This document shows positions 118-62,163 of a stretch of 64,000 bases of DNA, in pieces (positions within the stretch are counted from its first letter, which is position 1; the number at the start of each line of letters is the position of its first letter). The DNA is from Schaalia sp. ZJ405 (GTDB lineage Bacteria; Actinomycetota; Actinomycetes; Actinomycetales; Actinomycetaceae): the NCBI RefSeq assembly GCF_011038885.2, contig NZ_CP064952.1, positions 1,364,001 to 1,428,000 of the forward strand, in the 5' to 3' direction. The notes under the pieces were generated by a model, which worked only from the letters and a program-made list of their open reading frames with translations, was not told where the DNA came from and searched no databases. Both the position numbers and the translations under genes were made by a program.

Positions 118-204
118 CTTAGCCGCAACACGTCCCCGTGTAGGGCGTCCTCGTTAATGAACTCACCCGAGGGCCGCGGCACATACACGAACTGGAAAAC
201 TCTC

Positions 205-639
205 ATGACACTCATCAACACCTCCTCCTCGTCCTTAGCCGCCACCATCGACGACACCCCCACGTCCTTCGACGATTTCCTCAAAGTCCTCTCTGGTCTG
301 TCGTTGACGTCAAATGTCATCGAAATCGACGTTGATCGCCAAAGGGTGACGATTGATGGAAAATCCGCGGGACTGTGCGCAAAGGAAATTGAGCTGCTGA
401 CGTATCTGGCTGCTCGGGCCGATCACGCGGTCTCACGCGCCGAACTGTTCGCCACGGTGTGGAGTGGTTCGGAGCTGGGTGATGATTCACGCACCGTCGA
501 CGCGCATATCCGTCGCCTCCGCAAGAAGCTGAGCATTGCTCCTGACTTGATCTCCACTGTTCGCGGCCAGGGATACCGCCTGAACTCGGCGCCGAGCATT
601 CACGTGCTGGCAACGCCTGTTCACGCGCTGGCTGCGTAG
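205..639 (+). CDS. Standalone winged-helix transcriptional regulator (OmpR/PhoB-type DNA-binding domain)
   Basis: This 144-residue protein is essentially one OmpR/PhoB-type C-terminal effector domain (Trans_reg_C) at about residues 38-127. The recognition helix is the stretch RTVDAHIRRLRKKL (96-109) and the wing hairpin is TVRGQGYRL (118-126). No receiver domain or kinase lies beside it, so it is an orphan regulator whose input is unknown. I chose ATG at 205, which follows GGAAAA (194-199). A TTG at 94 opens the same frame, but its extra 37 residues look non-coding and run over an inverted repeat and a copy of the GTCCTCGT motif. It is separated by a tRNA from the accessory genes that follow. 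Its target genes cannot be inferred from context. The family is secure; the start is less so. Confidence 0.85.
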   Translation: MTLINTSSSSLAATIDDTPTSFDDFLKVLSGLSLTSNVIEIDVDRQRVTIDGKSAGLCAKEIELLTYLAARADHAVSRAELFATVWSGSELGDDSRTVDAHIRRLRKKLSIAPDLISTVRGQGYRLNSAPSIHVLATPVHALAA

Positions 640-747
640 TGCGTCGTTCCCCGGAAGGATTGATCGACGCACGCTGCAGGTGGTTGCGTCGCGCACGGAA
701 ACTTGGGGACGCCAAGACTGATGACGGTCCCAGTTTTGGATTCTGAA

Positions 748-769
748 CACGTGTCCAGTCACGTGTCCA
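748..769. repeat. Two tandem CACGTGTCCA repeats
   Basis: The decamer CACGTGTCCA occurs at 748-757 and again at 760-769, separated by GT. Each copy contains the palindrome CACGTG. The pair sits downstream of the tRNA-Arg terminator, in the gap between two non-coding features. It could be a protein-binding site or a leftover of an attachment site next to the tRNA. Nothing else in the window repeats it exactly. Confidence 0.6.
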
Positions 770-777
770 TTTTCGGT

Positions 778-8980: not shown

Positions 8981-9260
8981 GTCCTCGCTCCTCTTCTCAA
9001 TCGGACGTATTAACTTCGCCGATGACACGCAGACGCATCCTCAATCGGCAACCCGAAAACTCTAACATGAGCGTCACCCCGCCACGAAGTCCGGACGCTG
9101 TTTTTCAGTGCGATCCTCATTACATGCCCCGCAGCACGCGCATTCAGGAACGAAACGGGCACGCATCGCTACACTGAAATCTCCACGGGGAGGCGCCAAC
9201 TCGTCCTCGTCCCCCGAATCACTGATCCGCGAACGAAACACCCCAAGGAGTACGGCTCCC

Positions 9261-9920
9261 ATGAGCGCCCCGACAAACACGATCGCCGCCGGGACGCATA
9301 TTGTCCACGAAATTGAGATCAAACGCTCCCGGTTCATCACGACACTGGCGCGCACAGACTCACCCGAGGACGCTCGCGCCCTCATCGACCGCGTCAAAGC
9401 GAAGCATCCGCAGGCGCGACACAACTGCTCCGCATTTCTCATCGAGCAGGAAGGACGAAACGCCGTTCAACATTTCTCCGATGACGGCGAGCCATCCGGA
9501 ACCGCTGGACAACCCATGATCGAGGCGCTGCGCCTTGCGGATGTTTGGAACGTCACCGCGGTTGTCACCCGCTACTTCGGGGGAATCCTCCTGGGCGGAG
9601 GCGGCCTCATCCGCGCCTACTCGTCGTCCGTGTCCGAGGCACTCGCCCGGGCTCCCCGCGCTCATCTTCGTGACTTATCAGTCATTGAGGCGCAGGTGCC
9701 GGTCGCTCAGGCGGGTCGGATCGAAGCCGAATTTCGCGCACGCAACGCACATGTCCTCGGTGTCGAATGGGCAGATCAGGCAACTCTTCGATTGGGGGTC
9801 GACCCCAACGACATCGACGACTACTCGTCACTCCTTCAGGAACTGACGTCGGGTGTTACATCGTTTCGCTTAGCGGAAAATCGCCGCATCGAGGTGGACG
9901 GTCCCGCCCCGAGGATCTAA
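9261..9920 (+). CDS. IMPACT/YigZ family protein
   Basis: The 219-residue protein has the UPF0029/IMPACT domain (about residues 10-120), recognised by IKRSRFI, DDGEPSGTAGQPM and the glycine-rich VTRYFGGILLGGGGLIRAY, and then a smaller C-terminal domain (DUF1949-like). Bacterial YigZ proteins are widespread; the eukaryotic relative binds GCN1 and tunes translation, but the bacterial role is not settled. ATG 9261 is chosen for AAGGAG at 9245-9250; upstream in-frame codons look non-coding. A GTCCTCGT copy lies 50 bases upstream. No operon partner is seen. Confidence 0.9.
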   Translation: MSAPTNTIAAGTHIVHEIEIKRSRFITTLARTDSPEDARALIDRVKAKHPQARHNCSAFLIEQEGRNAVQHFSDDGEPSGTAGQPMIEALRLADVWNVTAVVTRYFGGILLGGGGLIRAYSSSVSEALARAPRAHLRDLSVIEAQVPVAQAGRIEAEFRARNAHVLGVEWADQATLRLGVDPNDIDDYSSLLQELTSGVTSFRLAENRRIEVDGPAPRI

Positions 9921-10357
9921 GCTCAACGATCGTGACTACCAATCAGACGTTCGCGATCAACGGCATGTGGATGCGCTCCATGCCCGCGGGCGAGGTATGT
10001 CTGTGCACCTGCATCTGTCAACCGGGCGAATGACCTTCCGGGTGCCCAGTGCACCGTCGTTCGCCCGTAATTCCCCTCGTATCCATTGCAGCGCCAACCG
10101 ATGGCAGGTCGACCGGAGAGCTCAGCTGTGACCGCAGTGCTTCACGCACCGGTGGTCATTGCCGAGGACGACGACCGCATCACGAAATGTGAGACCACAG
10201 CGTCGACATCCGTGACGTTGCCCCAGCCGTGATGGATGCCGGGAGCTCAGACACCGGCCAGTCCCCTACCAAACTCAGATCGCACAGAGACCCCGTTGAG
10301 GGACCTGACACTCACTTCTCGTTTGACCAAAAATCACCAGACATTTGTGGAGATATC
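9921..10357. other. Gene-free gap before cysK
   Basis: I see no supportable gene in these 437 bases. The one clear structure is an 8-bp inverted repeat CGGGCGAA (10023-10030) / TTCGCCCG (10060-10067) with a 29-base loop, which may end the upstream transcript. The cysK promoter must lie in the right part, but I cannot place it. GGAGA at 10349-10353 is the cysK ribosome-binding site. Confidence 0.5.
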
Positions 10358-13519: not shown

Positions 13520-13677
13520 TGTGCTTGGCCATCCGCAACCACGGTTCATTGGAGCTGTGGCGAGGCTGCCTTGCCAGGTGACGGGGAGGAACCGGTGAGG
13601 CGTGACAAAGTGCGACACGTCCTCGGCAATGACCGAAATCCCGAGACATAGTGACGCTGGTCACCTATGCTTGGGCT

Positions 13678-14169
13678 ATGGAACAACGAACTCTACAAAC
13701 CCAGTTGGATGTGTTGGCACGCGCCGCCCGCCCTGCGAGCGTAGAGATCGCCACACTCACCACCTACGACATCCCTCAGCTTGCCGCACTCACCAATGAG
13801 GCATACGGCGTTGCCAACACTCCAGAAGCCCTCCTGGAAACCTCTGAAGAACTTCGCATGACCTTCGAGGGAGCCTTCGGGAGAACAACAGAGGACTCAT
13901 TTGTTGGCGCATGGGACGGCGGAACCCTCGTCGGAGCGATCCTCGTCATCCGACAGTCCCCGTGGGATGACATCGAAGACGGACCATTCGTCGTCGACCT
14001 CGTTGTGGCACCGGAATACCGCCGACAGGGAATCGCAACAGCCCTGATTTCCGAAATCTCCGAACGCTGCATCGACTGGGGATACACCTCACTTTCCCTG
14101 CGCATCGACAATCGACACCACGGGGCTGCTGAGCTGTATCACGTCCTCGGATTCGAGCAAGTCAGCTAG
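13678..14169 (+). CDS. GNAT family N-acetyltransferase
   Basis: The 163-residue protein has the GNAT fold. Acetyl-CoA is bound by motif A, here FVVDLVVAPEYRRQGIATALI with the RRQGIA pyrophosphate loop, and the C terminus has the typical NxxA-like ELYHVLGFEQ. The substrate is unknown. I chose ATG 13678, the last bases of which lie 8 bases after TATGCT (13665-13670), with no ribosome-binding site in between. The message may be leaderless, which is common in actinobacteria. A GTG at 13651 would add nine residues. It stands between cysE and the Nei gene with no clear operon. Confidence 0.87.
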   Translation: MEQRTLQTQLDVLARAARPASVEIATLTTYDIPQLAALTNEAYGVANTPEALLETSEELRMTFEGAFGRTTEDSFVGAWDGGTLVGAILVIRQSPWDDIEDGPFVVDLVVAPEYRRQGIATALISEISERCIDWGYTSLSLRIDNRHHGAAELYHVLGFEQVS

Positions 14170-15352: not shown

Positions 15353-18286
15353 TCAGGCCTTCGGTACGACAACATTCACGAGGGACGGTGCACGAACAAT
15401 GACCTTCAGTGGATCATGACCACCCAAGGCCTTGTCGATCGGTCCCTGTGCGAGCGCAAGCTCGCGCAGGTCGTCCTCGTTAATTGACGGCGGCACCTCA
15501 AGACGAGCACGCACCTTGCCGTTCACCTGGACAATCGCGGTGACGGTTTCCTCAACGAGGAGCGACTGATCGGAAACCGTGGGGAAAGGCTCACGCGCAA
15601 GCGACTGCGGGTGTCCTAGACGCATCCACAGTTCCTCACAGATATGCGGAGCAACCGGCGACAGCATGAGGATCAACGGCTCCACAGCCGCACGTGGCAC
15701 CGACTCAAGCGACGTCAGGTGATTATTCAGCACAATGAGCTTCGAGATCGCCGTGTTGATACGGAGATTCTCGTACTCCTCCGTCACCTCAACAATTGTT
15801 CGCGCCACGAGGCGCTGAGTTTCAAGATCCGCTTCATCATCGGTCACCGTGGGCTCGCCGGTTTCCTCGTCAACGGTGTTGCGCCACAGGCGTTGAAGGA
15901 ATCGCTGTGATCCAACAACTGCGCGTGTTTCCCACGGACGTGAGACATCAAGCGGCCCCATGCTCATCTCGTAGACACGGAACACGTCAGCACCGTACGC
16001 GTCATACATCTCATCAGGGGTCACGATGTTCTTCAGGGACTTGCCCATTTTCCCGTATTCGCGGGTCACCGACTCACCGTTCCACGTGAATCCGGTGTGC
16101 TCGTCGCCCTCGACCTCGTCAGCGGGAACGTATTGCCCGCGCGCATCCTTGAAGGCATACGCCTGAACATATCCCTGGTTGAACAGCGTATGATACGGCT
16201 CCGAATCAGGGACTTTCCCCAGATCAAAGAGGACTTTCTGCCAGAAACGTGAATACAGGAGGTGGAGGACAGCGTGCTCGACACCACCGATGTACATGTC
16301 GGTTCCCCCCGACACCTTGCTCGGTGTGGGCCCCATCCAATATTCAAGGTTTGCTTGTGACGCCAGCGCATCGGAGTTATTCGGATCCGTGTAGCGCATT
16401 TCGTACCAGCAGGAGCCCGCCCACTGGGGCATCGTGTTAGTTTCACGACGGTAGGTTTTGAGTCCATCCCCCAGGTCGAGTTCAACATTCACCCACTCTT
16501 CGGCCCGACCCAGCGGTGCCTCCGGGGAGGAATCCGCATCATCCGGATCAAAGGTCCGCGGAGAATAGTCCGTGATCTCCGGGAGGTTGATTGGCAGCAT
16601 CTCTTCAGGGACTGCGTGAGCGCACCCGTCCTCGTCCCAGACAATGGGGAAAGGTTCACCCCAGTAGCGCTGGCGCGAGAAGAGCCAGTCGCGCAGACGA
16701 TAGGTCACCGTGCGATGTCCCAATCCCTTGTCTGCGAGCCACTGCGTCATCGCCGCTTTGGCTTCGTCCTTCGCGAGGCCGTTAAGTGAGATTTCATCAT
16801 TTGCGGAGTCAACAGCAACGCCGTCACCGGTGTAGGCGGACTGATCAAGATCGTATCCTTCGGGGTCGTCGGCGGGGCCGATCGTGCGGATGATCTCCAG
16901 CTCGTACTTCTTGGCAAACGTCCAGTCACGGTCATCGTGGGCGGGAACAGCCATGATCGCGCCGGTCCCGTATCCCCACAGGACGTAGTCAGCAACGAAC
17001 ACGGGAACGTTGCGGCCATTCACCGGGTTAATTCCGAAGAGACCCGTAAAGACACCCGTCTTCGTCCGCTCCTCATCGGCACGTTCCGTTTCGGATTTTG
17101 CAGCGGCCTGGGCACGATAGGTGGCCACGGCTTCGCGGGGGTGAGAGGCTCCCCCGGTCCATGCGTGACGAGTTCCCTCGGGCCATTCATCCGGAACCGT
17201 CAGGGCCGCGCCGTCAGAAGACTCCCCACCCTGGGTTCCCCCAAGGATCGGGTGCTCCGGGGCGACAACCATGAAGGTTGCACCAAATAGCGTGTCAGGG
17301 CGCGTTGTGTACACCTCAAGAGAATCTTCTACGGCCCGAGCATCCTTGGCCGCGGGCACCTCGAAGCGAACGGTGGCTCCCTCGGAACGTCCGATCCAGT
17401 TGCGCTGCATTGTGCGGACCTTTTCGGGCCAGTCGATCGTGTCAAGATCGTCAGCCAGACGCTTGCCGTAAGCGGTGATCCGCATCATCCACTGACGAAG
17501 ATTCCGCTTAAATACGGGGTAGTTTCCGCGTTCTGAGCGCCCTTCGGCGGTGACTTCTTCATTGGCGAGGACGGTGCCCAGTCCAGGGCACCAGTTGACC
17601 GGAGCCTCAGAGACGTAGGCCAATCGGAAGGAATCCACAACCTTTGCCCGCTCGACCTCGTCAAGGTCTGCCCACACGCGACCATCGGGAACGCCGACCT
17701 CGCCAGAAGTAAGCTTTTCCCGCAGTTCACTGATGGGACGAGCCGCCCCTGCCGAACCATCCGGCGCTGTGGCGTGCGGATCGAACCACGAGTTGAAGAT
17801 CTGAAGAAAAATCCATTGCGTCCACCGCACGTAGTCGGTGTCTGTTGTTGCCAGCGTCCGACGCGAATCGTGGGACAGGCCGAGGCGACGCAGCTGGCGA
17901 CGCATATTCGCAATGTTTTGCTCGGTCGTGATGCGCGGATGCTGACCTGTCTGCACGGCGAATTGCTCGGCGGGCAGGCCGAAAGCGTCGTACCCCATTG
18001 TGTAGAGGACATTGTCGCCTTTCATGCGGCGGAATCGCGCGAGAGTATCGGTCGCAATGTATCCGAGCGGATGGCCGACGTGCAGCCCCTTACCCGAGGG
18101 GTAGGGGAACATGTCAAGGAGGAAAAACGGGGTGGATGTCGCAAGCGGACCCGCAAGATCACCTTCGGGGTTGTCAGCGTAGAAGGTGCCGCGTTCTTCC
18201 CAGCGGTCCTGCCACTCGATTTCGATCTGCCCCGCAAGTTCGGCGGTGTAGCGCTGTGCCGGCTGCGTTCCGGGGGTCTGAGTCAT
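15353..18286 (-). CDS. leuS: Leucyl-tRNA synthetase
   Basis: This 977-residue class I synthetase charges tRNA-Leu. It shows the HIGH-type motif as HVGH (69-72, within [17 protein letters not shown]), a long editing domain insertion in the middle (with the typical [17 protein letters not shown]), the KMSKS-type motif as KMGKS near residue 740, and the anticodon-binding and C-terminal domains at the end. ATG 18286 is chosen because GGGGAG precedes it and the family starts here; the frame continues further upstream without similarity. It diverges from the HIT gene. A GTCCTCGT copy lies near its 3' end (15473). No T-box leader was seen. Confidence 0.97.
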
Positions 18287-18402: not shown

Positions 18403-18849
18403 ATGACGACTGTTTTCCACAAGATCATCACCGGTGAGTTTCCGGGCCGCTTTGTCTGGGCAGACGACATCTGCGTTGCGTTCGCAACAATCGAACCGAC
18501 ATCACCCGGTCACGTCCTCGTTGTTCCCCGTGAGCCTTTTGCTCAGTGGACCCACGGCCCCTCAACAACGGCAACCCACCTTTTTGACGTTGCTCGAATC
18601 ATCGGCCAAGCTCAGGAGCAGGCCTTCGGCGTGGCTCGGGCGGGACTGGCAATCGCCGGTTTCGAGGTTCCGCATACGCACCTCCACGTCATCCCACTGC
18701 GGGATGAAAAAGACATTCTTCTCTCTCGCGCCCGCGCTGCATCTGACGAGGAGCTCGATCAGGCAATGACTGCGCTACGTGCCGCACTCATCAGCATGGG
18801 CCACGAGTCTCACGTCCCTGCGTCAATGGGCTCGCCTGCACTGTCCTAG
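18403..18849 (+). CDS. HIT family nucleotide hydrolase/transferase
   Basis: The 148-residue protein belongs to the histidine triad family. The active-site motif is HTHLHVIP at 91-98 (H-x-H-x-H), and a typical [12 protein letters not shown] lies near residue 35. HIT proteins of the HINT/Fhit type hydrolyse nucleoside phosphoramidates or dinucleoside polyphosphates; the substrate here cannot be told. It lies head to head with leuS. A GTCCTCGT copy (18514) falls in the VLVV codons. It is followed by the tRNA-Lys pair. Confidence 0.92.
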
Positions 18850-36552: not shown

Positions 36553-37287
36553 ATGACATGTGTGATCACCGAAGCGGTTCCCTCCGTTGACGAGGCTCGT
36601 CCTCGTTCATCCTCGATCAGTGGGAAACTCAACTGGCTGCGCGCCGGTGTCCTTGGAGCAAACGACGGTATTGTCTCCATTTCGGGTCTCCTCGTTGGTG
36701 TGGCCGCCGTCAACCCCGAGAACACGGGAGCCATTGCGATCGCGGGAATCGCCGGAATTGTTTCCGCTTCGCTGTCAATGGCTGTCGGTGAATACGTCTC
36801 CGTGTCCACTCAACGCGATTCAGAGGAACAGCTCATCCGCCTCCAGCGTCGTGCCATTGAGGCTGATCCCGCGGGTCAAGAACGGCGCCTCGCACGCATG
36901 TGGACATCGAAAGGGCTCAGCCCTAAGGTCGCTGCCCAGGTTGCCCGCGAATTGACGGAAAAGGACGCGGTCGGAGCTCACCTGACAGCGGAGCACAACA
37001 TTGACCCCGAAGACCTCACAAGCCCGTGGGCAGCGGCTTTCTCCTCGCTCATCGCTTTTATTTGCGGAGCTCTCCTCCCCCTTCTCACGATGTTACTTTT
37101 CCCGCCGTCGCTGCGGATCGTTGCAACGTTCGTGTCCGTCCTCGTTGCTCTTGCCCTCACCGGGTACGTCTCGGCGTGGCTGGGAGATTCTCCGCGAGGC
37201 CGAGCCGTCCTGCGACTCCTCACCGGTGGAAGCGCAGCGATGGCCCTGACCTTCCTTGTTGGTCACATCTTCGGGGTGAATGCGTAA
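36553..37287 (+). CDS. VIT/CCC1-family iron/manganese transporter
   Basis: The 244-residue membrane protein has five hydrophobic helices. The first pair carries the conserved LRAGVLGANDGIVSISGLLVGVA and ASLSMAVGEYVSVSTQRD segments (acidic residue, Met and Ser in the helices typical of VIT1/CCC1). A cytoplasmic helical bundle with Glu-rich turns (EEQLIRLQRRAIE, REL-TEKDAVGAHLTAEHN) lies between helices 2 and 3 and in eukaryotic VIT1 binds metal. It should move Fe2+ or Mn2+ out of the cytosol. It lacks the ferritin-like domain of some bacterial members. ATG 36553 is used. Confidence 0.92.
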   Translation: MTCVITEAVPSVDEARPRSSSISGKLNWLRAGVLGANDGIVSISGLLVGVAAVNPENTGAIAIAGIAGIVSASLSMAVGEYVSVSTQRDSEEQLIRLQRRAIEADPAGQERRLARMWTSKGLSPKVAAQVARELTEKDAVGAHLTAEHNIDPEDLTSPWAAAFSSLIAFICGALLPLLTMLLFPPSLRIVATFVSVLVALALTGYVSAWLGDSPRGRAVLRLLTGGSAAMALTFLVGHIFGVNA

Positions 37288-44992: not shown

Positions 44993-45931
44993 TTAGATCA
45001 TGAGAAGCGACGCTAGACGCATCCGCGCTTTCTTCACCTCCGGGGTGTTACCGGCAACTCTCAACAGGTCAAGCAGACGCACACGCGCTGATTCCTTAGC
45101 TTGCGCATCATCCGCAGTTGCCATGACGTTGAGGAGAATATCGAAAGCACGCTCCACTTCGCCTGCTCCGAAGAGCTGATCAGCCTGAGCTGCCGGGTCA
45201 GAAAGATCAGCGTGCTCAGATCGCACACGCAGCCGCACACGCGACAGGTGAGCCTTTGCGTCCTCGTCCCTCGGATTAAGCTCAATCACTTTCTCCCATG
45301 CCGTCACCGCGTCTTCAAGACGGCCCTCGTCCTCGGCGCTGAGGGCGTCGAGATGTTCGGGCGGGATCGGAGCGAGCGTGTCCTGCTCGTCAACGCGAAT
45401 AACTCCCGTGACCCCCATCTGTTGAGCAGCTTGAAGGAGTTGATCAATGATGGAACGAACCTGATCTTTGACGGCATTGCCCTGGAAGAGAGGAACCGGG
45501 CGTCCACCAACGAGGGCGACCGTCGTCGGCACGGCCTGAATCTGGAAGGCCTGCGCAACTTGAGGGGCCTGCTCAATGTCGATCTTCACCAACTGGAATG
45601 CGCCCCGCAGATCGCGAGCCACCTCTTCCAACGTGTCGATGGCCGGTTTTGACTCAAGAGAGCGTCCCGACCACATGACGATCACCACGGGAACTGTCTG
45701 CGACGTCGCCATAACGTCCTGGAACGTTGCCTCGGTCGCCTCCGTGATCAGCGGAAGATCAATGGTGATCCGGGCCTGCCCTCCATCGGCTTCCGTCCTG
45801 CTCGCCGCATCGTCGGACACACTGCGAGCAGACGCTGCCAGATCAACCGCTCCTCGTGAATCCGCCGGCTCGTTCACGTGTTCGTTGTCGTGTTCCACAG
45901 GTCCTTCTTTCGCCACGTCACGTCTTTTCAT
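44993..45931 (-). CDS. Thioredoxin-fold/TPR protein of the YbbN (CnoX) type, without CxxC
   Basis: The 312-residue protein has a charged N-terminal stretch (about 1-60), a thioredoxin fold (about 65-165; VVIVMWSGRSLESKPAIDTLEEVA and the cis-Pro loop QAVPTTVALVGG) and helical TPR-like repeats (about 190-312). The redox motif is missing: SGRS replaces CGPC, as in YbbN/CnoX, which act as holdases/co-chaperones rather than reductases. ATG 45931 is a best guess; an upstream TTG (45961) abuts the stop of the preceding gene and a later GTG also fits. It closes a three-gene set with a lipoprotein and a membrane protein, so it may help fold or stabilise them. Confidence 0.8.
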   Translation of the reverse strand: MKRRDVAKEGPVEHDNEHVNEPADSRGAVDLAASARSVSDDAASRTEADGGQARITIDLPLITEATEATFQDVMATSQTVPVVIVMWSGRSLESKPAIDTLEEVARDLRGAFQLVKIDIEQAPQVAQAFQIQAVPTTVALVGGRPVPLFQGNAVKDQVRSIIDQLLQAAQQMGVTGVIRVDEQDTLAPIPPEHLDALSAEDEGRLEDAVTAWEKVIELNPRDEDAKAHLSRVRLRVRSEHADLSDPAAQADQLFGAGEVERAFDILLNVMATADDAQAKESARVRLLDLLRVAGNTPEVKKARMRLASLLMI

Positions 45932-46966: not shown

Positions 46967-48513
46967 TGGTCTCCCTCATCGACCGCTTGGTTCTTCCCGC
47001 CGAAGATTCTGCCGAAAACTCCGCGTTTCGCCGTCTGTTCTGAGTCGGGTGTTTCTGGGGACGAGGACGAGGCCGGCTTTTCGGCGTCGATGACGAGAAT
47101 AAGCCCGGTGGTAAACTCGCGTCCCTCGATGATGATCTTGTCTTGTCCCTTTTCGCGTGCCTCGCGGATCGCGCGACGCGAGGGGAACACCATTCCCGGT
47201 CTGATTGCTGAAACGTCAATAATTCCTGTGTCCGTGGGCACGGTCTCCGGTGGATCTTCATCACGCGGGCCGTCAATCTTGCCGTGGCGTCCCTGAGGCT
47301 GCTCAGCATCGGCTTCGCTGTCTTCCACGGTCGTCGGCGCCTCGTCCTGCAGCGCAGTAGCATCATCCATCGACACCTGATCATCTGCAGGTGCGTCGTC
47401 TTCTTCGGCCTCAAAGGGGCGGTCGCTTTCCGTTGCATGATCCTGCTCAGCCTCGACAACATCTCGAGTCTGGTCAGTATCGTCACTACGGTGCTCGTCA
47501 TCCTGGTCGTCGCCAGCATCATCCGACGATTCATTTTCGACTGACGAGTCATCCAGCTGCGACATCGTCGACGCAGAGCTGGGTTCGTCCTCGTCCTCGG
47601 CCCCGTTCGTGGAGGGTTCGTCGCTTTCATGCGTGCCAGCAACCATCGAGGCAACCTGCGCCGTATCAATCGACTGTGTCTCGGTGATATCTGCCCCGGC
47701 CTGAGAGGCGAGCTTTTCAGCGCGTTCTTCACGGCTGCGCAGAGTGCGGGCCCGTCCAATCGCGAGGATCACAGCGATGACCGCGAGAACTCCCGCAAGG
47801 AGGAACGAAATAATCGCCACAACATTTGCCTGTCGTGTCTGCCATGTCAGCGTCAGGGTGAGATCCTCAGCTCCACCGGCCGAAATCGCAAGAATTGACC
47901 GACCATCGGGAATGTCATCAATAGTCAGCGATGCCCGAGAGGCGTGCGTCGCGCTCTGAAGCCACATGTCAGATTCCGAGGCAAGTGCAACCAACTCAGC
48001 AGCCGCTGGGTTTCCAGAAGAAGAGGAAGCGCCCGACTGGGCGTTCTCACCGCTTCCAGCGTCACCGGATCGGGCCGTAGTCCGTGCCGATTCCCTCATT
48101 TTTTCTAAGGTGTCATTCGACTTGGCCACCATGCCCGACTGCGCACCCGACTGGGCGTTTCGATCATCTGGAGCGCCGCGGTGCTCTTCAATTTTCAGTT
48201 GGGAACGATCCGAAGAGATTCCCACGACCTCTGTGTAAGCATCGGACCCGATCCACCCCGTGACATCGCTGACGGTTCCCAAAGCAAGAACAACGTCCTG
48301 ACCCGATGCCGAGGCCGCAGTGACGGTCACCTTCGAGTCGATGAGCGGAAGAACTCCGTTTCTCGTCATCGTGATCGCGGTTGGAGAGACCGTCGACGAA
48401 CTCAGCTCATGAGCAGGCTTGAGAACAGTCACACTGAGAATTCCGATGATCAGACAGATCATCGCCGCAACGGCAACAGCGAGGGCCGACGTGTACTGTT
48501 TGAGTCGTTCCAC
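46963..48513 (-). CDS. Membrane protein with acidic cytoplasmic region
   Basis: The 516-residue protein has one N-terminal membrane helix (about 10-30), an exported Ser/Ala-rich domain (about 35-225), a second helix (about 229-252) and then a long Asp/Glu/Ser/Thr-rich tail with a basic stretch at the end (about 255-516). The tail contains VSAIRPGMVFPSRRAIREAREKGQDKIIIEG near residue 440. I recognise no enzyme motif. It is the first gene of the operon with the lipoprotein (ATGA overlap) and the YbbN-like protein; the three may form an envelope complex. ATG 48513 is the natural start. Confidence 0.7.
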   Translation of the reverse strand: MERLKQYTSALAVAVAAMICLIIGILSVTVLKPAHELSSSTVSPTAITMTRNGVLPLIDSKVTVTAASASGQDVVLALGTVSDVTGWIGSDAYTEVVGISSDRSQLKIEEHRGAPDDRNAQSGAQSGMVAKSNDTLEKMRESARTTARSGDAGSGENAQSGASSSSGNPAAAELVALASESDMWLQSATHASRASLTIDDIPDGRSILAISAGGAEDLTLTLTWQTRQANVVAIISFLLAGVLAVIAVILAIGRARTLRSREERAEKLASQAGADITETQSIDTAQVASMVAGTHESDEPSTNGAEDEDEPSSASTMSQLDDSSVENESSDDAGDDQDDEHRSDDTDQTRDVVEAEQDHATESDRPFEAEEDDAPADDQVSMDDATALQDEAPTTVEDSEADAEQPQGRHGKIDGPRDEDPPETVPTDTGIIDVSAIRPGMVFPSRRAIREAREKGQDKIIIEGREFTTGLILVIDAEKPASSSSPETPDSEQTAKRGVFGRIFGGKNQAVDEGDQ

Positions 48514-50152: not shown

Positions 50153-50234
50153 GGATCAATTCTGCCCCACTCGCCCACACCGGTCGGGGAGATTTCGGAG
50201 AAACCTGCCGGGTTCGTCCTCGTTAATCCCTCTA

Positions 50235-50946: not shown

Positions 50947-51155
50947 GCCACGAGGACGAGCGCGGGCTTGCCCACACTCCGGTTCTTGGCGCGGGGCGGC
51001 CGAAGTCACGTGATGGGGACTGACCCGCAACCGGCTCGATCACAGGTTTCGCAGCCGTGTTCAATAGCCCGCTCAGTGGCGAGGCAGGGGGATTTGACGG
51101 GGATTAGAAACGCCGACGGCCTGAAGATAGCACGCTCAGTTGCGCGCGGAAGAAG

Positions 51156-53388: not shown

Positions 53389-54318
53389 TCAGCCCGCGAC
53401 CAAGGCGTCGGCCCCGCCCACGATCTCGGTGATCTCCTGGGTGATCTCCGCCTGGCGGGCCGAATTGGCCAGACGTGTGTACTTCGTAATGAGTTCCTCA
53501 GCGTTGTCCGTTGCCGTGTGCATCGCCCGCTGACGCGACGCCAGTTCGGAAGCCGCCGACTGAAGAATGACGTTGTGAATACGGCTTCCCACATACTGCG
53601 GAAGAAGCGCCTCCAACACAGCCTCCGGAGACGGAATGAACTGATATTCAGGCAATGCTGCAGAAGGATCGTCGCTATAGCCGCGCTCTCCCACACGATT
53701 TTCATCGGCTTGCGGGGCATCAACGATGGTCAACGGAAGCATCTGGCGGACCTGAGGAACCTGGCTCATGAGGTTCTTGAACCGCGTGTACACCAGGTGT
53801 ACCTCGGACACGCCCCGAGTCGGATCAACGTCAACGAAGCGCCCGAGCAGTTCTTGAGCAATCTCGTGGCTTGTTGCCGACGTCGGATGATCCGATTCTC
53901 CTTCCCAGCTCCGCTCAATGGCCACGCCACGGAAGCGGAAATACGCCGCCGCGCGCCGACCGAAGGTGTAGAGAACAGGGGTCTTCCCGGATTGGGTCAA
54001 CCGCTCGATGAGTTTCTCAGATTCACGCAGAATCGTCGCTGAATAGGCACCAGCCATTCCGCGATCCGAGGCGATAACGAGGACGGCAACGCGCCCGGTA
54101 TCGGTGCGCTCACGCGTCAACGGATGGTCGAGGTCCGTGTGAACCGCAACGGCCGCCACCGCCTGGGTGAGTGCCTTTTCATACGGGCCGATCTCCGTTG
54201 CCGCACGACGGGCGGCCCCGATTCGTGACGCCGCAATCATCTCCATCGCGCGGAAGACCTTCGCAAGCGTGCGCGTCGACGCAATTCGCTGCTTATAGAT
54301 CCTCTGCTGTCCACCCAT
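53389..54318 (-). CDS. atpG: ATP synthase gamma subunit
   Basis: The 309-residue rotor subunit begins MGGQQRIYKQRIASTRTLAKVFRAMEMIAASRI, the conserved N-terminal helix. It ends with AMHTATDNAEELITKYTRLANSARQAEITQEITEIVGGADAL, the conserved C-terminal helix that turns inside the alpha/beta ring. The middle holds the Rossmann-like part with an insertion (SATSHEIAQELLGRFVDVD). It follows atpA by 3 bases. Confidence 0.97.
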   Translation of the reverse strand: MGGQQRIYKQRIASTRTLAKVFRAMEMIAASRIGAARRAATEIGPYEKALTQAVAAVAVHTDLDHPLTRERTDTGRVAVLVIASDRGMAGAYSATILRESEKLIERLTQSGKTPVLYTFGRRAAAYFRFRGVAIERSWEGESDHPTSATSHEIAQELLGRFVDVDPTRGVSEVHLVYTRFKNLMSQVPQVRQMLPLTIVDAPQADENRVGERGYSDDPSAALPEYQFIPSPEAVLEALLPQYVGSRIHNVILQSAASELASRQRAMHTATDNAEELITKYTRLANSARQAEITQEITEIVGGADALVAG

Positions 54319-54321
54319 TGA

Positions 54322-55959
54322 TCAGGCCTTCCCGCCCTGACGACCGCGGGTGATTTCCTCGTGAGCGATCTCTGCCTCAGTTTCGCCGCCGTCCTCGTCA
54401 ATGACACCGTGACCACCCGACACCCACTGATCGTGGCACTGCGTCACCTGTTGGCGCAGCGTCTCCTCAGTGTCGTCGTCGAGAACACCTGTCTCTTGGA
54501 TTGTTTCGAGGATCGATGTGTTGTGACGCAGATGGTTGATCAGCGTGCGCTCAAAGTCGAGGACGTCCTCGACTTCCAGATCATCAAGGAAGCCGTGCGT
54601 TCCCGCCCAAATCGAGGCGACCTGCTCGCTGACAGAATACGGCGAGGACTGCGGTTGCTTGAGCAACTCCATGAGGCGCTGACCGCGGGTCAACTGCTGG
54701 CGAGTTGCTGCATCAAGGTCGGAGGCGAACATCGCAAAGGCTGCCATTGACCGGTACTGAGCGAGCGTGAGCTTGAGCGTACCCGCGACTTTCTTCATGG
54801 CCTTGATCTGCGCGTCACCACCGACTCGGGACACCGAGATTCCGACATCCACGGCGGGTCGCTGGTTGGAGTTGAACAGATCGGACTGAAGGAAGATCTG
54901 ACCGTCGGTGATCGAAATGACGTTCGTCGGAATGTAGGCCGACACGTCGTTTGCCTTGGTTTCGATAATCGGAAGGCCCGTCATCGAACCGCCACCCAAT
55001 TCATCGGAGAGCTTCGCGCAGCGCTCAAGGAGGCGTGAGTGCAGGTAGAAGACATCACCGGGGTAGGCTTCACGCCCCGGCGGGCGGCGCAGAAGGAGCG
55101 ACACCGCACGGTAGGCCTCCGCCTGCTTGGAGAGGTCATCAAACACGATGAGGACGTGCTTGCCCTGATACATCCAGTGCTGCCCAATCGCTGAACCGGT
55201 GTAGGGAGCCATGTACTTGTAGCCCGCGGGATCGGATGCCGGGGATGCCACAATCGTTGTGTATTCAAGGGCTCCGGCATCTTCAAGCGTCGAACGCACC
55301 GACGCAATTGTTGACCCCTTCTGACCGATGGCAACGTAGATGCAGCGCACCTGCTTCTTCGGGTCACCCGAAAGCCAGTTGTCACGCTGGTTGAGAATCG
55401 TATCCAGCGCGATCGCTGTCTTTCCGGTCTTACGGTCACCGATGATCAGCTGACGCTGTCCACGACCAATCGGGATCATCGAGTCAATGGCCTTCAGACC
55501 GGTTTCCAGCGGCTCATGCACGGACTTACGCATCATGACGCCCGGGGCCTGAAGCTCCAACGCGCGACGCCCATCAATGTCCGTGATCTCTCCGCGGCCA
55601 TCGATCGGACGTCCCAGCGGATCGACTGTACGGCCGAGGTATCCGTCACCAACCGGAACTGACAGCACCTCCCCGGTGCGGCGGACAACCTGTCCTTCTT
55701 CGATCCCACCGAAATCGCCGAGGACGACGGCACCGATCTCACGCTGATCAAGGTTCATCGCCAGGCCAAGTGTGCCGTCCTCGAAAGTCAGCAGCTCATT
55801 GGCCATAGTGCCGGGCAGGCCCTCGACGTGGGCGATACCGTCGGCCGTTTCAGTAACACGCCCGATTTCCTCGGTTGCCACCTTCGAGGGGCGGTACGAG
55901 TCCATGAAGGAGTCCAACGCGCTGCGGATCTCCTCCGGACTGATTGACAGGTCAGCCAT
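54322..55959 (-). CDS. atpA: ATP synthase alpha subunit
   Basis: The 545-residue non-catalytic nucleotide-binding F1 subunit has the P-loop GDRKTGKT, the [35 protein letters not shown] segment and the signature [17 protein letters not shown]. The start is ATG 55959, which follows AAGGA at good distance; an ATG two codons earlier lies within that site. Its C terminus is acidic and includes IDEDGG, where a copy of the GTCCTCGT motif (54391-54398) is read in reverse. Confidence 0.98.
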
Positions 55960-56028: not shown

Positions 56029-56847
56029 CTAACGTGCCAGGCGGCGTTGCAGATCAGCTAGCCGGGTAGCCAGCGACGCATCGACCGACGTTGCACCCGA
56101 AACGATGCGGAATCCTCCAACAACATCCGGGTTGACCGATAGCGCCAGAGAAAGTTCCTTGCCGAAACGCTTCGTGAGAATTTCTCTCAGACGATCGACT
56201 TGTGCGGCAGATAGCTGTGTCGCTGTTTCCACGGTGACGAGGAGGCGATCGCGTAGCGTTGCTGCCCACCGGGCGAAACGACGGAGATTATGCAGAAGAC
56301 GACCGTGACGAGAACGTCCAACGCCGCGGCGCAGCAGCCTCATCGTCCAGGGTGACACATGAGATGAGAAAACCGTTGAGGCCAGGTCGGCACGCTCGCG
56401 AGACGAGTATTCTTTCATGTCCGACAGTCGTTGACGCAGCTCCCGGTGATCTGTCAAAACCTCGATGAGGTTCATCAGTTCGTGCTCCACGGTGACGATC
56501 ATGTCTGCGCGTTGCGCATCCGTCAGCACCGCAAGGATCCCCAAAACTTCAAGTGAGTTCTTCAGGTCGCTTGGATTTGACCAGTGATCGGCCACCATGA
56601 CATCGAGGACGCTCAGCGTCGCGGGAGCCAGGTGAGAGGAAAACGCACCGGCGACAAGGGCCTGCTTATCGGCGCTATCACGCCCCGGGTCTGTCAACGC
56701 ACGGCGCAGCTGAGAGTTCGTTGCAACGACATCAGCCAACCCGAAGAAGTCCTCCGCAACGCGCATGACATCCGTACCCGCCGGGGCAAGCGCCTGGTCG
56801 AGTTCCTTCACGTACGCAACGGATTCGATTCTTCCTTCGCCGTTCAT
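56029..56847 (-). CDS. atpH: ATP synthase delta subunit
   Basis: The 272-residue peripheral-stalk subunit is of the longer actinobacterial size. It has the N-terminal helical bundle (about 1-110) and a C-terminal beta/helix part with LRLLVTVETATQLSAAQVDRLREIL- and VDASLATRLADLQRRL-like ends of the OSCP family. It is not fused to the b subunit as in mycobacteria. The start overlaps atpF by four bases (ATGA-type). It links F1 to the b dimer. Confidence 0.93.
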   Translation of the reverse strand: MNGEGRIESVAYVKELDQALAPAGTDVMRVAEDFFGLADVVATNSQLRRALTDPGRDSADKQALVAGAFSSHLAPATLSVLDVMVADHWSNPSDLKNSLEVLGILAVLTDAQRADMIVTVEHELMNLIEVLTDHRELRQRLSDMKEYSSRERADLASTVFSSHVSPWTMRLLRRGVGRSRHGRLLHNLRRFARWAATLRDRLLVTVETATQLSAAQVDRLREILTKRFGKELSLALSVNPDVVGGFRIVSGATSVDASLATRLADLQRRLAR

Positions 56848-58600: not shown

Positions 58601-58764
58601 GTTTTCTTCCTCGTCAAGGAACCTCGTATATGGTACCAGCACCCGGCGTTGTTACCAGTCCCCGTCACCCGCATTCCCCCGATGAGTGTCCATGTTCACG
58701 CCTGATTTTGGCGCGCGCACGTCAACCCGCACTGAACGTCCCTGAGGGTGCGCGCTCGTCCTCG

Positions 58765-59217
58765 TCAATGAGAAGAGGAATCTCCGCTAAGAAACGACTG
58801 GTCGACAGTCATCTGACGCATCGACGACAGAACGAAAACCTGCGAGAACGATGCGACAAGAATCGCGAGGATCGCCGCGATTGCGGGGAAACGAATATCG
58901 ACACCAAGGGCACGCGGAACGTAGAGACTGAGAATGAGAATCCCCACCTTCACCGCGTAGGACCCAAGCACCCAGGCAACGACGCGCGAGGAGTCACGGC
59001 TGGCACGCGCAAGGAAAAACCACTCTGCCACGAGGACGAGGAGGGTCGTTGCCACCGCAAGGCACGCGGATAAGGCAGGCATGTGCAGGACGAGGGCGAC
59101 GATGCCCTCACCGAGAACGAGGACAACCCCGGCGACGCTCAGGAGATGAACCAAACGGCGAATCGCCTGATCAAGGGGGCTCATCGGCGACAAAGACGAA
59201 GATGGCACGAAGGTCAC
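58765..59217 (-). CDS. AtpI-like membrane protein
   Basis: The 150-residue protein has four hydrophobic helices and lies where actinobacteria encode AtpI or a similar protein before atpB. Hydrophobic segments at about 25-50, 51-70, 83-102 and 108-128 and a loop of charged residues fit. AtpI helps assemble the c-ring, and relatives may carry Mg2+ or Ca2+. It overlaps the WecA-like gene by four bases. Its 3' end coincides with a GTCCTCGT copy (58758-58765). The family is inferred partly from place. Confidence 0.8.
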   Translation of the reverse strand: MTFVPSSSLSPMSPLDQAIRRLVHLLSVAGVVLVLGEGIVALVLHMPALSACLAVATTLLVLVAEWFFLARASRDSSRVVAWVLGSYAVKVGILILSLYVPRALGVDIRFPAIAAILAILVASFSQVFVLSSMRQMTVDQSFLSGDSSSH

Positions 59218-60350
59218 TCCTTGGAAGTGGGAGGCAGCACCCGTCGTCGGTTCGCGGAACGAGACAGGTGACGCGCATTGGGGAATTCAGACAAGGTCAA
59301 GGCAACCGCAACCAAGAAAGCCGGAATCGTAAAGACAAGGACCCGGGTCCACTCAGTGACGAGTAACCCAACGGCGGGGAGGCAGACAATTGCCGTCCAC
59401 ATCCACAGGATCGCCACGACCGATCGGTGCGAGTGTCCACGCAGAAGAAGCCGGTCATGGAAATGCGAACGATCTGCCTTGAAGGGGCTGTGACCGCGAA
59501 GCATTCGGCGGATCGACGTCACAACAAGATCCGCTACCGGCATGAAAATCACCGACAGAGGCAGCAGAAGCGGCAGCACACCAACGAAGATCTGCTGACC
59601 CCCCAACTGCGACGGGTCGATCTGGCCGGTGACAATAATGCCCGCTCCGGCAAGAACGAGACCAAGAGTTTCCGCTCCCCCACCCATCATGATCGAGGAC
59701 GGGTGGAAATTGAACCACAGGAAACCCAGGCACACGCCCATGAGGGCAATGACTGCCAGCGACGCGGTTGTCGCATAGGACGCTGCGCCCATGATCCGGG
59801 TGAGGATGTAGGAATAGATAAAGAACGCTCCCGCTCCGATCGCGACCATTCCGGCAGCGAGCCCATCAAGTCCGTCAATGAAGTTCACCGCGTTGACGAT
59901 GCCGACGACAAGGAAAACCGTGACGATGAGCGACAGCCGCGATGAGCCGATCGTCACACCGAAAATCGGGAAGGTCACCAGCTGAACACCGTAGAAGGCC
60001 ATGACTCCGGCGATGAGGATCTGACCGGCAAGTTTCGCCATCCAGTCGAGCTCAAAGATGTCGTCAATGACCCCCAAGACACACATGGCGGCCGCGGCTC
60101 CCATGAGCGCCCAAGGAACGTGTGTTGTAAAGAGCGGAACCATGTACGGGATCCGCGATGCCACAAGCATCGTCACAAGCAATCCGATGGTCATCGCGAC
60201 CCCGCCGAGGCGTGGAATAGGCTGGGCCTGAAGGTCTCGGCTCCTGAGCTCAGGAACAATCCCCCACGTGACGCATGCCCACCGTACGAGGGGAGTCATC
60301 AACACGGTGACCCCCATCGCGACGAGCATGAGGAGGAGATAAACCTTCAT
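59214..60350 (-). CDS. WecA/MraY-family polyprenyl-phosphate sugar-1-phosphate transferase
   Basis: The integral membrane enzyme (about 378 residues from ATG 60350) joins UDP-GlcNAc and polyprenyl phosphate to start a cell-wall polymer. Family motifs are GVIDDIFELDW (the DD of the first loop), VNFIDGLDGLAAG, and the last-loop HFHDRLLLRGHSHR with its His cluster, in about 11 helices. Its position between tsaC and atpI is the conserved actinobacterial rfe/wecA place. The frame extends to GTG 60455 with a basic leader; I prefer the ATG at 60350, where the first membrane helix starts. Exact sugar is unproven. Confidence 0.9.
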   Translation of the reverse strand: MKVYLLLMLVAMGVTVLMTPLVRWACVTWGIVPELRSRDLQAQPIPRLGGVAMTIGLLVTMLVASRIPYMVPLFTTHVPWALMGAAAAMCVLGVIDDIFELDWMAKLAGQILIAGVMAFYGVQLVTFPIFGVTIGSSRLSLIVTVFLVVGIVNAVNFIDGLDGLAAGMVAIGAGAFFIYSYILTRIMGAASYATTASLAVIALMGVCLGFLWFNFHPSSIMMGGGAETLGLVLAGAGIIVTGQIDPSQLGGQQIFVGVLPLLLPLSVIFMPVADLVVTSIRRMLRGHSPFKADRSHFHDRLLLRGHSHRSVVAILWMWTAIVCLPAVGLLVTEWTRVLVFTIPAFLVAVALTLSEFPNARHLSRSANRRRVLPPTSKE

Positions 60351-60478
60351 CCGTTGCGGGTTTTCCTTTGTTCTCGAAAGTCGTGTCAGTCTCTGGCGTG
60401 GCATCGAGGCCGAGAGCGGTTGTTCAGATTCCTTCCCAAGCGAAGCTGCGGACACAGCCTACGACGAGCAACGCTGAC

Positions 60479-61135
60479 TTAAACGGACCGAACGTCACAC
60501 CCGATCACCTCAGACAGCTGCGACAAGGATAAAGCGCCGACGCGGATTGCGGCGACCCCGCCATGCGCAAGGTCAAGAATCGTTGAGGGGGTTGAGGACT
60601 GTGTCGGTCCGGCATCAACGTACCCTGCGATTGAGTCACCGAATGCCTCTTGCGCTTGGGCAACAGTGGTTGCTGGTGGCTGCCCCGTCTTATTCGCACT
60701 GGTCACAGCCATCGGCCCGGTTTTTTCCAGCAGGGTGAGCATCGCCGGATGATTCGGCATACGCAAGGCAACCGTCCCACCGGTTTCCCCCAGATCCCAT
60801 CCCAGGTTCGGCCTCGCCGGAAGGATCACGGTCAGCGCACCCGGCCAGAAAGTCCCCGTCAAAGCTCCCACCGCCTCAGCGGCTGACCTCGGGATGATAC
60901 AGATTTTCTCAATGTCATCTGGGTGATGGACGAGGACGGGCGGCGGCATATGCCTGCCCCGGCCTTTGGCTGCGAGCACATTGAGCACGGCCTCGGGATC
61001 ATCGGCTCGCGCACCAATTCCATACACCGTATCCGTGGGAACAACGAGGACGCCGCCTGCACTAACCAGGTCGCTCGCCAATGTCAAGTCGTCACAGTTC
61101 CACGAGGGAATCACTGAAAATACGTGTGCCGTCAC
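60479..61135 (-). CDS. tsaC: L-threonylcarbamoyladenylate synthase
   Basis: The 218-residue YrdC/Sua5-type enzyme makes threonylcarbamoyl-AMP from threonine, bicarbonate and ATP for tRNA t6A37. Family features are VVPTDTVYGIGARADDPEAV, the ligand-binding KGRGRHMPPPVLVHHPDDI, LRMPNHPAMLTLLEKTGPMAVTSANKTGQPP and the final VRVGAL-type end (AAIRVGALS). It overlaps prmC by four bases (ATGA), so it is in an operon with prfA and prmC. Two GTCCTCGT copies lie in it. Confidence 0.95.
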   Translation of the reverse strand: MTAHVFSVIPSWNCDDLTLASDLVSAGGVLVVPTDTVYGIGARADDPEAVLNVLAAKGRGRHMPPPVLVHHPDDIEKICIIPRSAAEAVGALTGTFWPGALTVILPARPNLGWDLGETGGTVALRMPNHPAMLTLLEKTGPMAVTSANKTGQPPATTVAQAQEAFGDSIAGYVDAGPTQSSTPSTILDLAHGGVAAIRVGALSLSQLSEVIGCDVRSV

Positions 61136-62163
61136 GGAAGAATTCTCTCACTTCTCACTGCGTGACCCGAAGATACAGCGGCGGTTTCATCCGAAAGTAC
61201 GACTGCGCAATCACCTGAGCGAGGTGCTCGTGCCCGAAGAAAACGCTCGGTTCCGCCAAGATCGCGTTGTGTCGTGATGTCAACGAAGCCGAGTTTTTGC
61301 GCAGCGTGGCGCATGAGGGACGATTGGCTCGGTGAATGTTCAACAACAACCAGTCCACCGGGGGCAAGAAAGTCTCGGGCGCGGCGAAGAATCGCCGTCG
61401 GAACGTCCATCCCGTCCTCGCCTCCACCGTAGAGAGCGAGCGCAGGATCAGCCGCAGCCTCAGGTTGTGTCGGCGCTTCACATGGGGGAACGTAAGGGGG
61501 ATTTGACACAACAACATCAACTAATCCGTTGAGTTCTGACAAAACCTGAGCGTCGGTGGCATCCCCGGGGACAACGCGAACCCCGCCGGGAGCAAGCCGG
61601 TCAACGTTTACCCGAGCAAGACCCACGGCATCGGGATCGAGTTCGACAGCGTACACGCGGGACCCGGGAACTTCCGTTGCCACCGCCAGTGCAATCGCCC
61701 CCGAACCTGTGCACAGGTCAACAACGATCGGAGATTGTTGCGCGTCCTCGTTCACTGGTGTGCGCGGCGTCGTGGCATTGATCGTGCGAAGGTGATCGAT
61801 AGCCGCTCCCGCAACACTTTCTGTCTCTGGACGAACAACGAACACGCCGGGCGCCGAGCGCAATGTCAGGGAACGGAAGTACATTCGTCCCGTGATGTGC
61901 TGCAAAGGCACGCGCGCACACCGTCGATGAACACCATCAATGAATCGGTGGATCACATCGGCATCGACCGGTTGAGGAATACTCCACGTTGAGCTCGTCT
62001 GCGCAGCCCATTCGAGGAGCTCTCGTGCCTCAATATGACCATTGACCTCGCCGATCGCACTCAGCTGCATCCTTGCCCAGCGCAGCAGTGAGGCAACCGT
62101 TGTTCCGGGATTGTCGTCCTCGTCTGGCTGACCGTCACCGACGAAGGTCCGCCGCTCAGCCAT
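61132..62163 (-). CDS. prmC: Peptide chain release factor N5-glutamine methyltransferase
   Basis: The 343-residue SAM enzyme methylates the glutamine of the GGQ motif in release factors. SAM is bound by [32 protein letters not shown], and the catalytic NPPY is in [40 protein letters not shown] is the conserved region that precedes it. ATG 62163 overlaps the prfA stop by eight bases (ATGGCTGA); the frame extends upstream without similarity. Its target PrfA is encoded immediately before it. The last about 40 residues are an extension with no clear role. Confidence 0.95.

Follow-up and report, generated by a model that had tools for sequence, protein, structure and literature searches.

The stretch analysed here, called the window, comprises 64,000 nucleotides of Schaalia sp. 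ZJ405 (positions 1,364,001–1,428,000 of the 2,345,961-base contig NZ_CP064952.1; G000 in our genome set) and carries, within its genes and between them, many copies of a short motif, GTCCTCGT. Exact copies number 35 (21 forward, 14 reverse), against a mean of 3.44 in 100 dinucleotide shuffles (standard deviation 2.04, maximum 10). The initial annotation had listed 33 of them, all at correct positions, and had overlooked two, at 28469 on the reverse and at 39386 on the forward strand. It had also taken GTCCTCGT as the strongest word, for which a better core can be given: the top 8-mer of the window is CGTCCTCG (58 copies, 4.8 expected from an order-2 Markov model), which starts one base further upstream, and 32 of the 35 copies of GTCCTCGT have the form CGTCCTCGT.

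An exact-copy search, combined with crude gene calls for context, places the copies as follows (coordinates are those of the 10-mer). The form CGTCCTCGTC lies on the forward strand at 9202..9211 and 25902..25911 (both between genes), 16627..16636 (antisense in a leuS-like gene), 31386..31395, 39385..39394 (the overlooked forward copy), 40960..40969, 45259..45268, 47586..47595 and 62115..62124, and on the reverse strand at 21983..21992, 32541..32550, 41261..41270, 47060..47069 and 60929..60938. CGTCCTCGTT is found at 18513..18522, 29721..29730 (between genes, the left arm of an inverted pair), 36598..36607, 37137..37146 and 61743..61752 (forward) and at 54076..54085 and 61043..61052 (reverse); CGTCCTCGTG at 39767..39776 (forward) and at 20780..20789, 50949..50958 and 59029..59038 (reverse); and CGTCCTCGTCaatgac at 29744..29753 (reverse, the right arm of the pair) and 54390..54399 (forward, antisense in an atpA-like gene). 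Single forward copies are CGTCCTCGTTaatga at 146..155 and CGTCCTCGTTaat at 50215..50224 (both between genes), CGTCCTCGTTaattga at 15472..15481 (antisense in the leuS-like gene) and CGTCCTCGTCaatgag at 58757..58766 (at a gene boundary); CGTCCTCGTTaata occurs once in reverse, at 28225..28234, between genes. GTCCTCGT is preceded by G at 28468..28477 (reverse, between genes, the second overlooked copy) and 35566..35575 (forward), and by T at 59116..59125 (reverse). The core CGTCCTCG occurs further on the forward strand at 14142..14151, 30850..30859, 32597..32606, 32699..32708, 39452..39461, 45328..45337, 47592..47601 (overlapping the copy at 47586..47595 in a 6-bp register), 54564..54573, 55776..55785, 61413..61422, 62602..62611 and 62935..62944, and on the reverse strand at 9363..9372, 23171..23180, 30626..30635, 31288..31297, 37399..37408, 41207..41216, 54556..54565, 55717..55726, 56602..56611, 59692..59701 and 62411..62420. 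The core appears as CGTCCTCGGCaatgac at 10161..10170 (reverse) and 13618..13627 (forward), both between genes, and as CGTCCTCGCCaatga at 17564..17573 (reverse), within the leuS-like gene.

The over-representation extends to the whole genome, where GTCCTCGT occurs 1,174 times (612 forward, 562 reverse) on the one contig and the same word read backwards 137 times (73 and 64), so that a count near Markov expectation, which the initial annotation had named as a refutation, is excluded in ZJ405. In a 464-kb sample of this genome, made up of the window and 20 evenly spaced 20-kb stretches, the top 8-mer and 9-mer are CGTCCTCG (378 copies, 56 expected) and CGTCCTCGT (217, 14 expected; order-3 Markov model). 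Aligned flanks yield an extended consensus of approximately cgNccTCGTCCTCGTCAATGA, which bears out the proposed extension to CGTCCTCGTYAATGA or YAATGA; in its upstream part, CGNCCT is repeated in a 6-bp register.

Most of the copies are coding. In a 504-kb sample of ZJ405, in which crude calls assign 82% of the bases to 407 genes, 341 of 414 cores CGTCCTCG lie within genes, in both orientations. Two frames hold 279 of these 341, C-GTC-CTC-G in sense (136, Val-Leu) and C-GAG-GAC-G in antisense (143, Glu-Asp), which is what one would expect if the motif were a by-product of codon or dipeptide preference, or of neighbour-dependent mutation. Shuffling synonymous codons within genes (60 shuffles), however, leaves 74.8 ± 7.3 coding copies of the core, a 4.5-fold excess in the genome, and the longer words behave alike (CGTCCTCGTC, 99 against 14.1; CCTCGTCAAT, 35 against 4.7). 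The tolerated dipeptides thus shape the placement of the copies, not their number. The argument that the motif is read in many frames therefore started from a wrong premise, while its conclusion, that codon preference does not explain the motif, holds. The 10-mer CGTCCTCGTC moreover reaches 0.436 copies per kb between genes and only 0.239 per kb inside them, which also speaks against a by-product. The core is spread about evenly (0.805 per kb intergenic, 0.823 genic), and since 18% of the 504 kb is uncalled, real genes have probably been counted in part as intergenic. The intergenic enrichment noted earlier hence stands for CGTCCTCGTC in the large sample and for neither the core nor the window taken alone, where 8 of 35 copies of GTCCTCGT are intergenic and one spans a gene boundary, with 22% of the window uncalled.

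As neither Markov expectation nor codon use accounts for the copies in ZJ405, the earlier suggestion of an uptake, recombination or chromosome-architecture signal gains support. Chi and KOPS (FtsK-orienting polar sequences) are short, frequent, asymmetric, over-represented words that are polar with respect to replication. The GC skew of the samples, the sole guide here, puts the origin near position 1 and the terminus at about 1.1–1.2 Mb; on this basis, 194 of the 378 cores of the 464-kb sample follow the leading-strand sense and 184 oppose it. There is no replichore polarity, and the forward excess seen in the window (20 to 13 in the initial annotation) is not general. We used ZJ405 alone for this comparison; equal strand totals in other genomes carry no information on polarity. 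A Chi-like recombination hotspot, recognised by a nuclease of the RecBCD or AdnAB type in the course of break repair, would fit a short, asymmetric motif with about one core copy per 1.2 kb, genic and intergenic, and known Chi words vary between bacterial groups. The absence of polarity disfavours both Chi and KOPS, and the several dialects within one genus (see below) and the AT-rich tail on a long consensus are unlike Chi, so that we consider a hotspot of this kind quite unlikely.

Along the chromosome, core counts in bins of 2 to 10 kb are nearly Poisson-distributed (variance/mean 1.13 to 1.28, or 0.98 to 1.08 without one stretch, L015), and the bins of the sample reveal no regularity of spacing beyond this. 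Each of the 21 sampled places has at least one core copy, and none of them indicates clustering at the origin or terminus. The stretch with phage genes has only 1. It contains the longest gap between cores, 19,270 bases from 1,670,731 to the end of the sampled stretch, where the sample mean is 0.8 per kb; of six proteins scanned there, three matched no family and the others are a phage portal protein, an antirepressor of the KilAC/Bro-N kind and an integrase-core protein. With its SPP1-type portal, L015 (1,670,731–1,690,000 of the genome) is apparently a prophage. The core is thus depleted in newly acquired mobile DNA in this one case. The second-longest gap (9.9 kb) is in L010; the third, at 145–9,201 of the window, includes a mutator-type transposase gene, yet also a sodium/hydrogen exchanger gene.

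Relatives of ZJ405 carry dialects of one scaffold, CG-N-CCTCG, in which N is mostly T, G or C, or else GGCCTCGG with the same tail. We surveyed 213 genomes of the family for CGTCCTCGT and 35 of the genus, including ZJ405, for dialect words by whole-genome counts. Within the genus, CGTCCTCGT ranges from about 1,000 copies down to background, the latter in six genomes (G152, G158, G161, G164, G170, G175). In sampled stretches of these, k-mer counts bring out GGCCTCGG followed by an AAT-type tail in four of the six and GCCTCGTCAA, a type of its own, in G175. Counts of CGTCCTCGTC, CGGCCTCGTC, CGCCCTCGTC and GGCCTCGGMAA illustrate the switch: 593, 186, 127 and 28 in ZJ405; 127, 732, 132 and 21 in G163; 355, 187, 1,245 and 6 in G157; and 13, 146, 6 and 158 in G158. 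GGCCTCGGMAA reaches 158–172 in the four GGCCTCGG genomes and at most 59 in the other 31. Requiring one of CGTCCTCGTC, CGGCCTCGTC and CGCCCTCGTC to lead at least 1.55-fold in raw counts, we could type 20 further genomes, ten as G (lowest lead 2.5-fold), nine as C (lowest 1.57) and one, ZJ405 itself, as T (3.2). This makes 24 typed genomes of 35; the remaining 11 are mixed, weak, atypical or without clear signal, nine of them mixed or weak (G144, G145, G146, G149, G150, G153, G167, G171, G176), including the 70% complete G150, in which the G word leads at 1.51. Among the named atpA loci (80 loci, most of about 21 kb, those above 15 kb scanned), dialect words were prominent in few.

Raw counts of CCTCGTCAAT (229 in ZJ405, 312 in G173, 214 in G159, 156 in G175) far exceed those of the reversed word (0 to 3), which is a weak control, since many genomes of other genera also have about 10 against 0–2. 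Because the reversed word is a weak control in GC-rich genomes too, we used codon shuffles instead (24 sets, 20 shuffles each, four core words). So corrected, the T word of ZJ405 remains at the 4.5-fold given above, the GGCCTCGG type stands at 6.5–7.5-fold in its clade, the C type at 6.4 in G173 and 2.7 in G159, and the G type at 2.3 in G148, with 12 intergenic copies; G155 and G163 stand out as G type mainly through intergenic copies, and G176 has 5.5 for C and 3.6 for T. An excess beyond composition and codon use is therefore established in ZJ405 and not in GC-rich relatives such as G146 and G171, whose large raw CGTCCTCGT counts we do not claim as a signal.

From six neighbouring chromosomal proteins, ComEC included, concatenated for 32 of the 35 genomes, we built a tree; G150, G156 and G172 lacked a usable region. 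The dialect labels placed on it are looser than the final typing: C also covers G146 and G153, T also covers G167, and G145, G171 and G176 are labelled T/C. All dialect labels together need 10 changes, against a mean of 19.1 when shuffled. The GGCCTCGG genomes form one fully supported clade whose sister is the G-type group (2 changes, against 8.6 on average when shuffled), and G175 is sister to G170. The dialects, with their invariant core, thus follow phylogeny, the raw counts in GC-rich genomes being partly codon use.

We also compared each single change of CGTCCTCGTC with an order-2 Markov model in 440 kb of ZJ405. Other bases at position 3 retain an 8.9- to 16.1-fold excess and changed words at positions 9 and 10 a 6.5- to 28-fold excess, against 0- to 3.4-fold at positions 4–7 (CCTC) and 1.0- to 3.8-fold at positions 1, 2 and 8. 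Species types differ most at positions 3 and 9, so that the positions variable between species are mainly those tolerated within ZJ405. In G211, a genome of another genus, position 3 tolerates C (35-fold) and A (12-fold) and not G (0.9), and position 8 also tolerates A and T (10–12-fold; 14 and 9 copies).

Individual sites are conserved as well. In regions of up to 20 kb around comEC in ten G-type genomes, compared in all ordered pairs, 865 of 1,416 alignable CGGCCTCG sites are intact in the other genome, whereas 114 permuted words with the same letters and CpG number are intact at 9,334 of 23,362 sites; the pairs are non-independent and each region has only about 20 sites.

This conservation, the near-uniform, non-polar spread and a position-specific tolerance like that of protein-binding sites would also suit a chromosome-organising or nucleoid protein. 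The sites parS and matS are confined to the origin or terminus region, and the even spread of the motif over the 21 sampled places disfavours them. Dialect turnover would moreover require a core protein to change along with its sites, and a relative, G170, manages without the motif. We therefore regard a nucleoid protein as an unlikely reader.

Beyond the genus, the core was found in three of four sampled genomes of other genera. In 80 kb of G211, CGTCCTCG and CGCCCTCG each occur 81 times (1.5 and 2.3 expected); the core is present 52 times in 74 kb of G120 (2.6 expected) and 20 times in 20 kb of G186 (0.9 expected), and is missing among the top words in 20 kb of G134. Whole-genome counts of CGYCCTCG, with those of its reverse in brackets, are 3,300 (118) in the 1.9 Mb of G211, 3,434 (325) in G186, 2,214 (273) in G117, 1,954 (202) in G114, 1,885 (342) in G120, 1,864 (199) in G185 and 1,635 (165) in G188, compared with 2,544 (327) in ZJ405, 2,609 (341) in G173 and 271 (207) in G175; seven of the eleven genomes counted were picked for high CGTCCTCGT counts and so are no random sample. 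The eleventh, G170, has 160 (222), and its 120 kb of sampled sequence contain 8 copies of CGTCCTCG where codon shuffles leave 3.6. G170 (L125, L126, L165–L168) combines competence genes with no clear dialect word.

Codon-shuffle excesses for the T and C words reach 13.7 and 17.3 in G211, 6.1 and 6.5 in G186, and 4.6 and 3.7 in G120. Compared with their codon shuffles, samples of Trueperella/Arcanobacterium (0.9 to 1.2), Actinomyces oris (0.6 to 1.0) and Rothia (at most 0.9) show no excess of core words. A mere by-product of coding is contradicted by these values for ZJ405, G211 and the GGCCTCGG genomes, and remains compatible with G146 and G171, GC-rich genomes with a 1.2–1.8-fold word excess and no other sign of a signal; as a general explanation it is highly improbable.

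Judged by family matches, machinery for natural transformation is encoded in the genus. ComEC was found in 33 of 35 genomes (missing in G150 and G172, completeness 70 and 88), DprA in 34 (missing in G150) and T2SSF in all 35, 33 of them above the cut-off. In ZJ405, a ComEA-like protein with SLBB and helix-hairpin-helix domains adjoins ComEC (L013). An Flp/Tad cluster at 92.5–97.5 kb of the genome includes two proteins that score over the family cut-off, TadA (TIGR03819) and an Rv3654c-type TadE-like protein (TIGR03816), and two that score below, a TadZ/Ssd-like and a further TadE-like protein, along with a T2SSF protein and a DUF4244 pilin; a second, at 1.715–1.720 Mb, combines a T2SSE ATPase with TadE and two T2SSF proteins. 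In G170, the genome with machinery and no clear signal, we detected T2SSE and DUF4244, together with a T2SSF and a TadE-like protein that both fall below the cut-off, the former only just. Since ComEC, DprA and Flp/Tad genes are present there, loss of competence genes is unsupported as the cause of its missing signal. We also considered a joint loss of Tad cluster and signal, as five of the six genomes without CGTCCTCGT excess also lack an adjacent TadB/TadC pair (T2SSF matches), and rejected it because four of these five carry the GGCCTCGG dialect. At L129:14206-15609, an IS3-type transposase gene lies 3' of the Flp/Tad cluster, inside a 6.5-kb gap without core copies.

Convergent pairs less than 50 bp apart number 10 in ZJ405 (4.7 expected; one hairpin is counted twice through overlapping copies), 6 in G-type genomes (3.7), 3 in G159 (0.3), 3 in G211 (4.1) and none in G173 (0.3) and G175 (0.2); the 4 pairs of the GGCCTCGG genomes (2.2) are all one site common to all four. 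The window pair at 29,721–29,753 is predicted to fold into a hairpin of −26.9 kcal/mol (z −4.8). A few such near-perfect intergenic hairpins are what transcription terminators or a dispersed repeat element would leave, but the location of most cores inside genes, in both orientations, and the lack of shared sequence outside the consensus make an origin of the motif from either very hard to credit.

Taken together, the motif is in our view a DNA uptake sequence with dialects, and a candidate for a third, Gram-positive, independently evolved uptake-tag system; we put the probability of this at roughly two in three. Among the three kinds of signal, uptake agrees best with the lack of polarity, the near-Poisson spread, the absence from the phage stretch, the dialects at tolerant positions and the competence genes, and non-polar, even, codon-independent words with dialects are known for the uptake tags of Gram-negative bacteria. 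Our estimate is based on ZJ405, the GGCCTCGG clade, G173 and G211, and we have kept it although the typing of GC-rich genomes has been weakened. Somewhat better than even, we think, are the chances of the more specific proposal that the CG-N-CCTCG dialects are an uptake sequence common to several genera of Actinomycetaceae, recognised by a Flp/Tad-pilus or ComEA-type receptor, which would make this the third family with such tags and the first outside Proteobacteria.

Several observations weigh against this interpretation. Word counts in GC-rich relatives are explained partly or wholly by codon use. In G146 and G171 the excess over codon shuffles (1.2–1.8-fold) is indistinguishable from that of a Microbacterium control (1.2- to 1.8-fold, four core words), and Schaalia cardiffensis, the nearest named species (87% identity in AtpA), has only 1.1–2.0-fold in a 22-kb sample. 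The coding copies of G151 and G169 do not distinguish a leading word (all four core words at 1.3–2.0-fold), with CGCCCTCG at 10 intergenic copies in G169 against 2 for each other core word, and at 2 against 0–1 in G151. Nor is the leading word distinct within genes in G167 and G145 (all four at 1.9–2.6-fold), and in G163 the G word is prominent between genes only (18 copies against 2–3). Taken by itself, label C shows weak clustering on the tree: it needs 6 changes, a number that 24 of 500 shuffles equal or undercut (mean 8.0). The test for depletion in phage DNA is a single stretch. Inverted pairs are few, though reported for the DNA uptake sequences (DUS) of Neisseriaceae 'in high numbers' in the part of PMC3630211 consulted. 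G170 has ComEC, DprA and Flp/Tad genes, yet no clear signal. The ComEC, DprA and T2SSF families also match in 10, 11 and 13 of 14 control genomes, so that their presence discriminates little, and four genomes retain a signal although they lack the second tad cluster, which is thus unnecessary for it.

We infer that the tag is read by a protein, what that protein could be and that uptake depends on the tag. In the proposed mechanism, a DNA receptor at the cell surface, most likely a Flp/Tad minor pilin or ComEA, would bind CG-N-CCTCG with flanking TC(AATGA); tagged DNA would be pulled in and handed by ComEA to ComEC, and then protected and recombined by DprA/RecA. As tagged fragments would be imported more often, copies would, by molecular drive, build up wherever they are tolerated; dialects would arise when the receptor came to prefer another form and the tag followed.

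Other repeated words also came to light. CGGCATCC (reverse GGATGCCG), possibly another tag, occurs 127 times in coding sequence (35.6 codon-shuffled) and 19 times between genes in 216 kb from Microbacteriaceae (L047, L050, L054, L060, L061, L065, L068, L081, L094) and an unclassified actinobacterial metagenome-assembled genome (L051), several of these loci having been selected for the prominence of the word; five Cellulomonas-type loci have 10 copies (11.3 codon-shuffled). In 21 kb of Mobiluncus mulieris (L029), CCTCATGA, reminiscent in shape of CCTCGTCAA, has 6 coding copies (0.3 codon-shuffled) and 2 intergenic ones. CGACGTCG occurs 47 times in coding sequence of A. oris (L028, L031, L036; 20.6 codon-shuffled) and 5 times in Rothia (L090, L093; 0.2). 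Unrelated repeated words are AACCTATCCG in G163 (L133–L135) and CACGTCAACG and GCACGTCAAC in G120 (L174–L177). In the window itself, 19514–24610 encodes a 1,698-residue protein with three Cna_B and two SpaA stretches, resembling a sortase-assembled pilin, and 32987–44833 holds glycogen/trehalose-type genes for an isoamylase-type protein, GlgE and GlgB.

If the motif is an uptake tag, Actinomycetaceae would offer an independent case on which to test how such tags arise and switch dialect, and would hint at a new DNA receptor in Gram-positive transformation. Mainly one core base would separate species, a form of sexual isolation by uptake tags that would help to forecast which microbiota species exchange genes and suggest a route for delivering DNA to bacteria that are hard to manipulate.

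According to the part consulted of a 2025 paper (PMC12616744), uptake tags are known from two Gram-negative families only, and a search of open-licence papers gave no account of the motif or of an uptake sequence in Actinobacteria among the matches listed. As far as the consulted parts of PMC3630211 and PMC6370729 describe them, the DUS of Neisseriaceae, with the receptor ComP, resemble the motif in being short, strongly over-represented, genic and intergenic, in having an invariant core and dialects distributed along phylogenetic lines, and in some inverted pairs; their word, GCCGTCTGAA (PMC6370729), is unrelated to CGNCCTCG here. The uptake signal sequences (USS) of Pasteurellaceae, with PpdA/ComN as candidate receptor, likewise combine a core with a weaker flanking consensus over about 17–20 bases and occur in two dialects with invariant positions, in the account excerpted from PMC12616744. 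In Haemophilus and other Pasteurellaceae both the word and the phylum differ from those of the motif. Flp/Tad-dependent transformation is described for Micrococcus luteus (PMC8467076, PMC4322843), in main texts that never use the term 'uptake sequence'; in the sections consulted, comEA, comEC and tad-1 genes are essential for transformation (PMC8467076). Unlike those of Neisseriaceae DUS, the hosts of the motif are Gram-positive actinobacteria with Flp/Tad-type pilus genes, and they share with M. luteus, as far as those sections go, the same actinobacterial comEA-comEC operon and tad genes.

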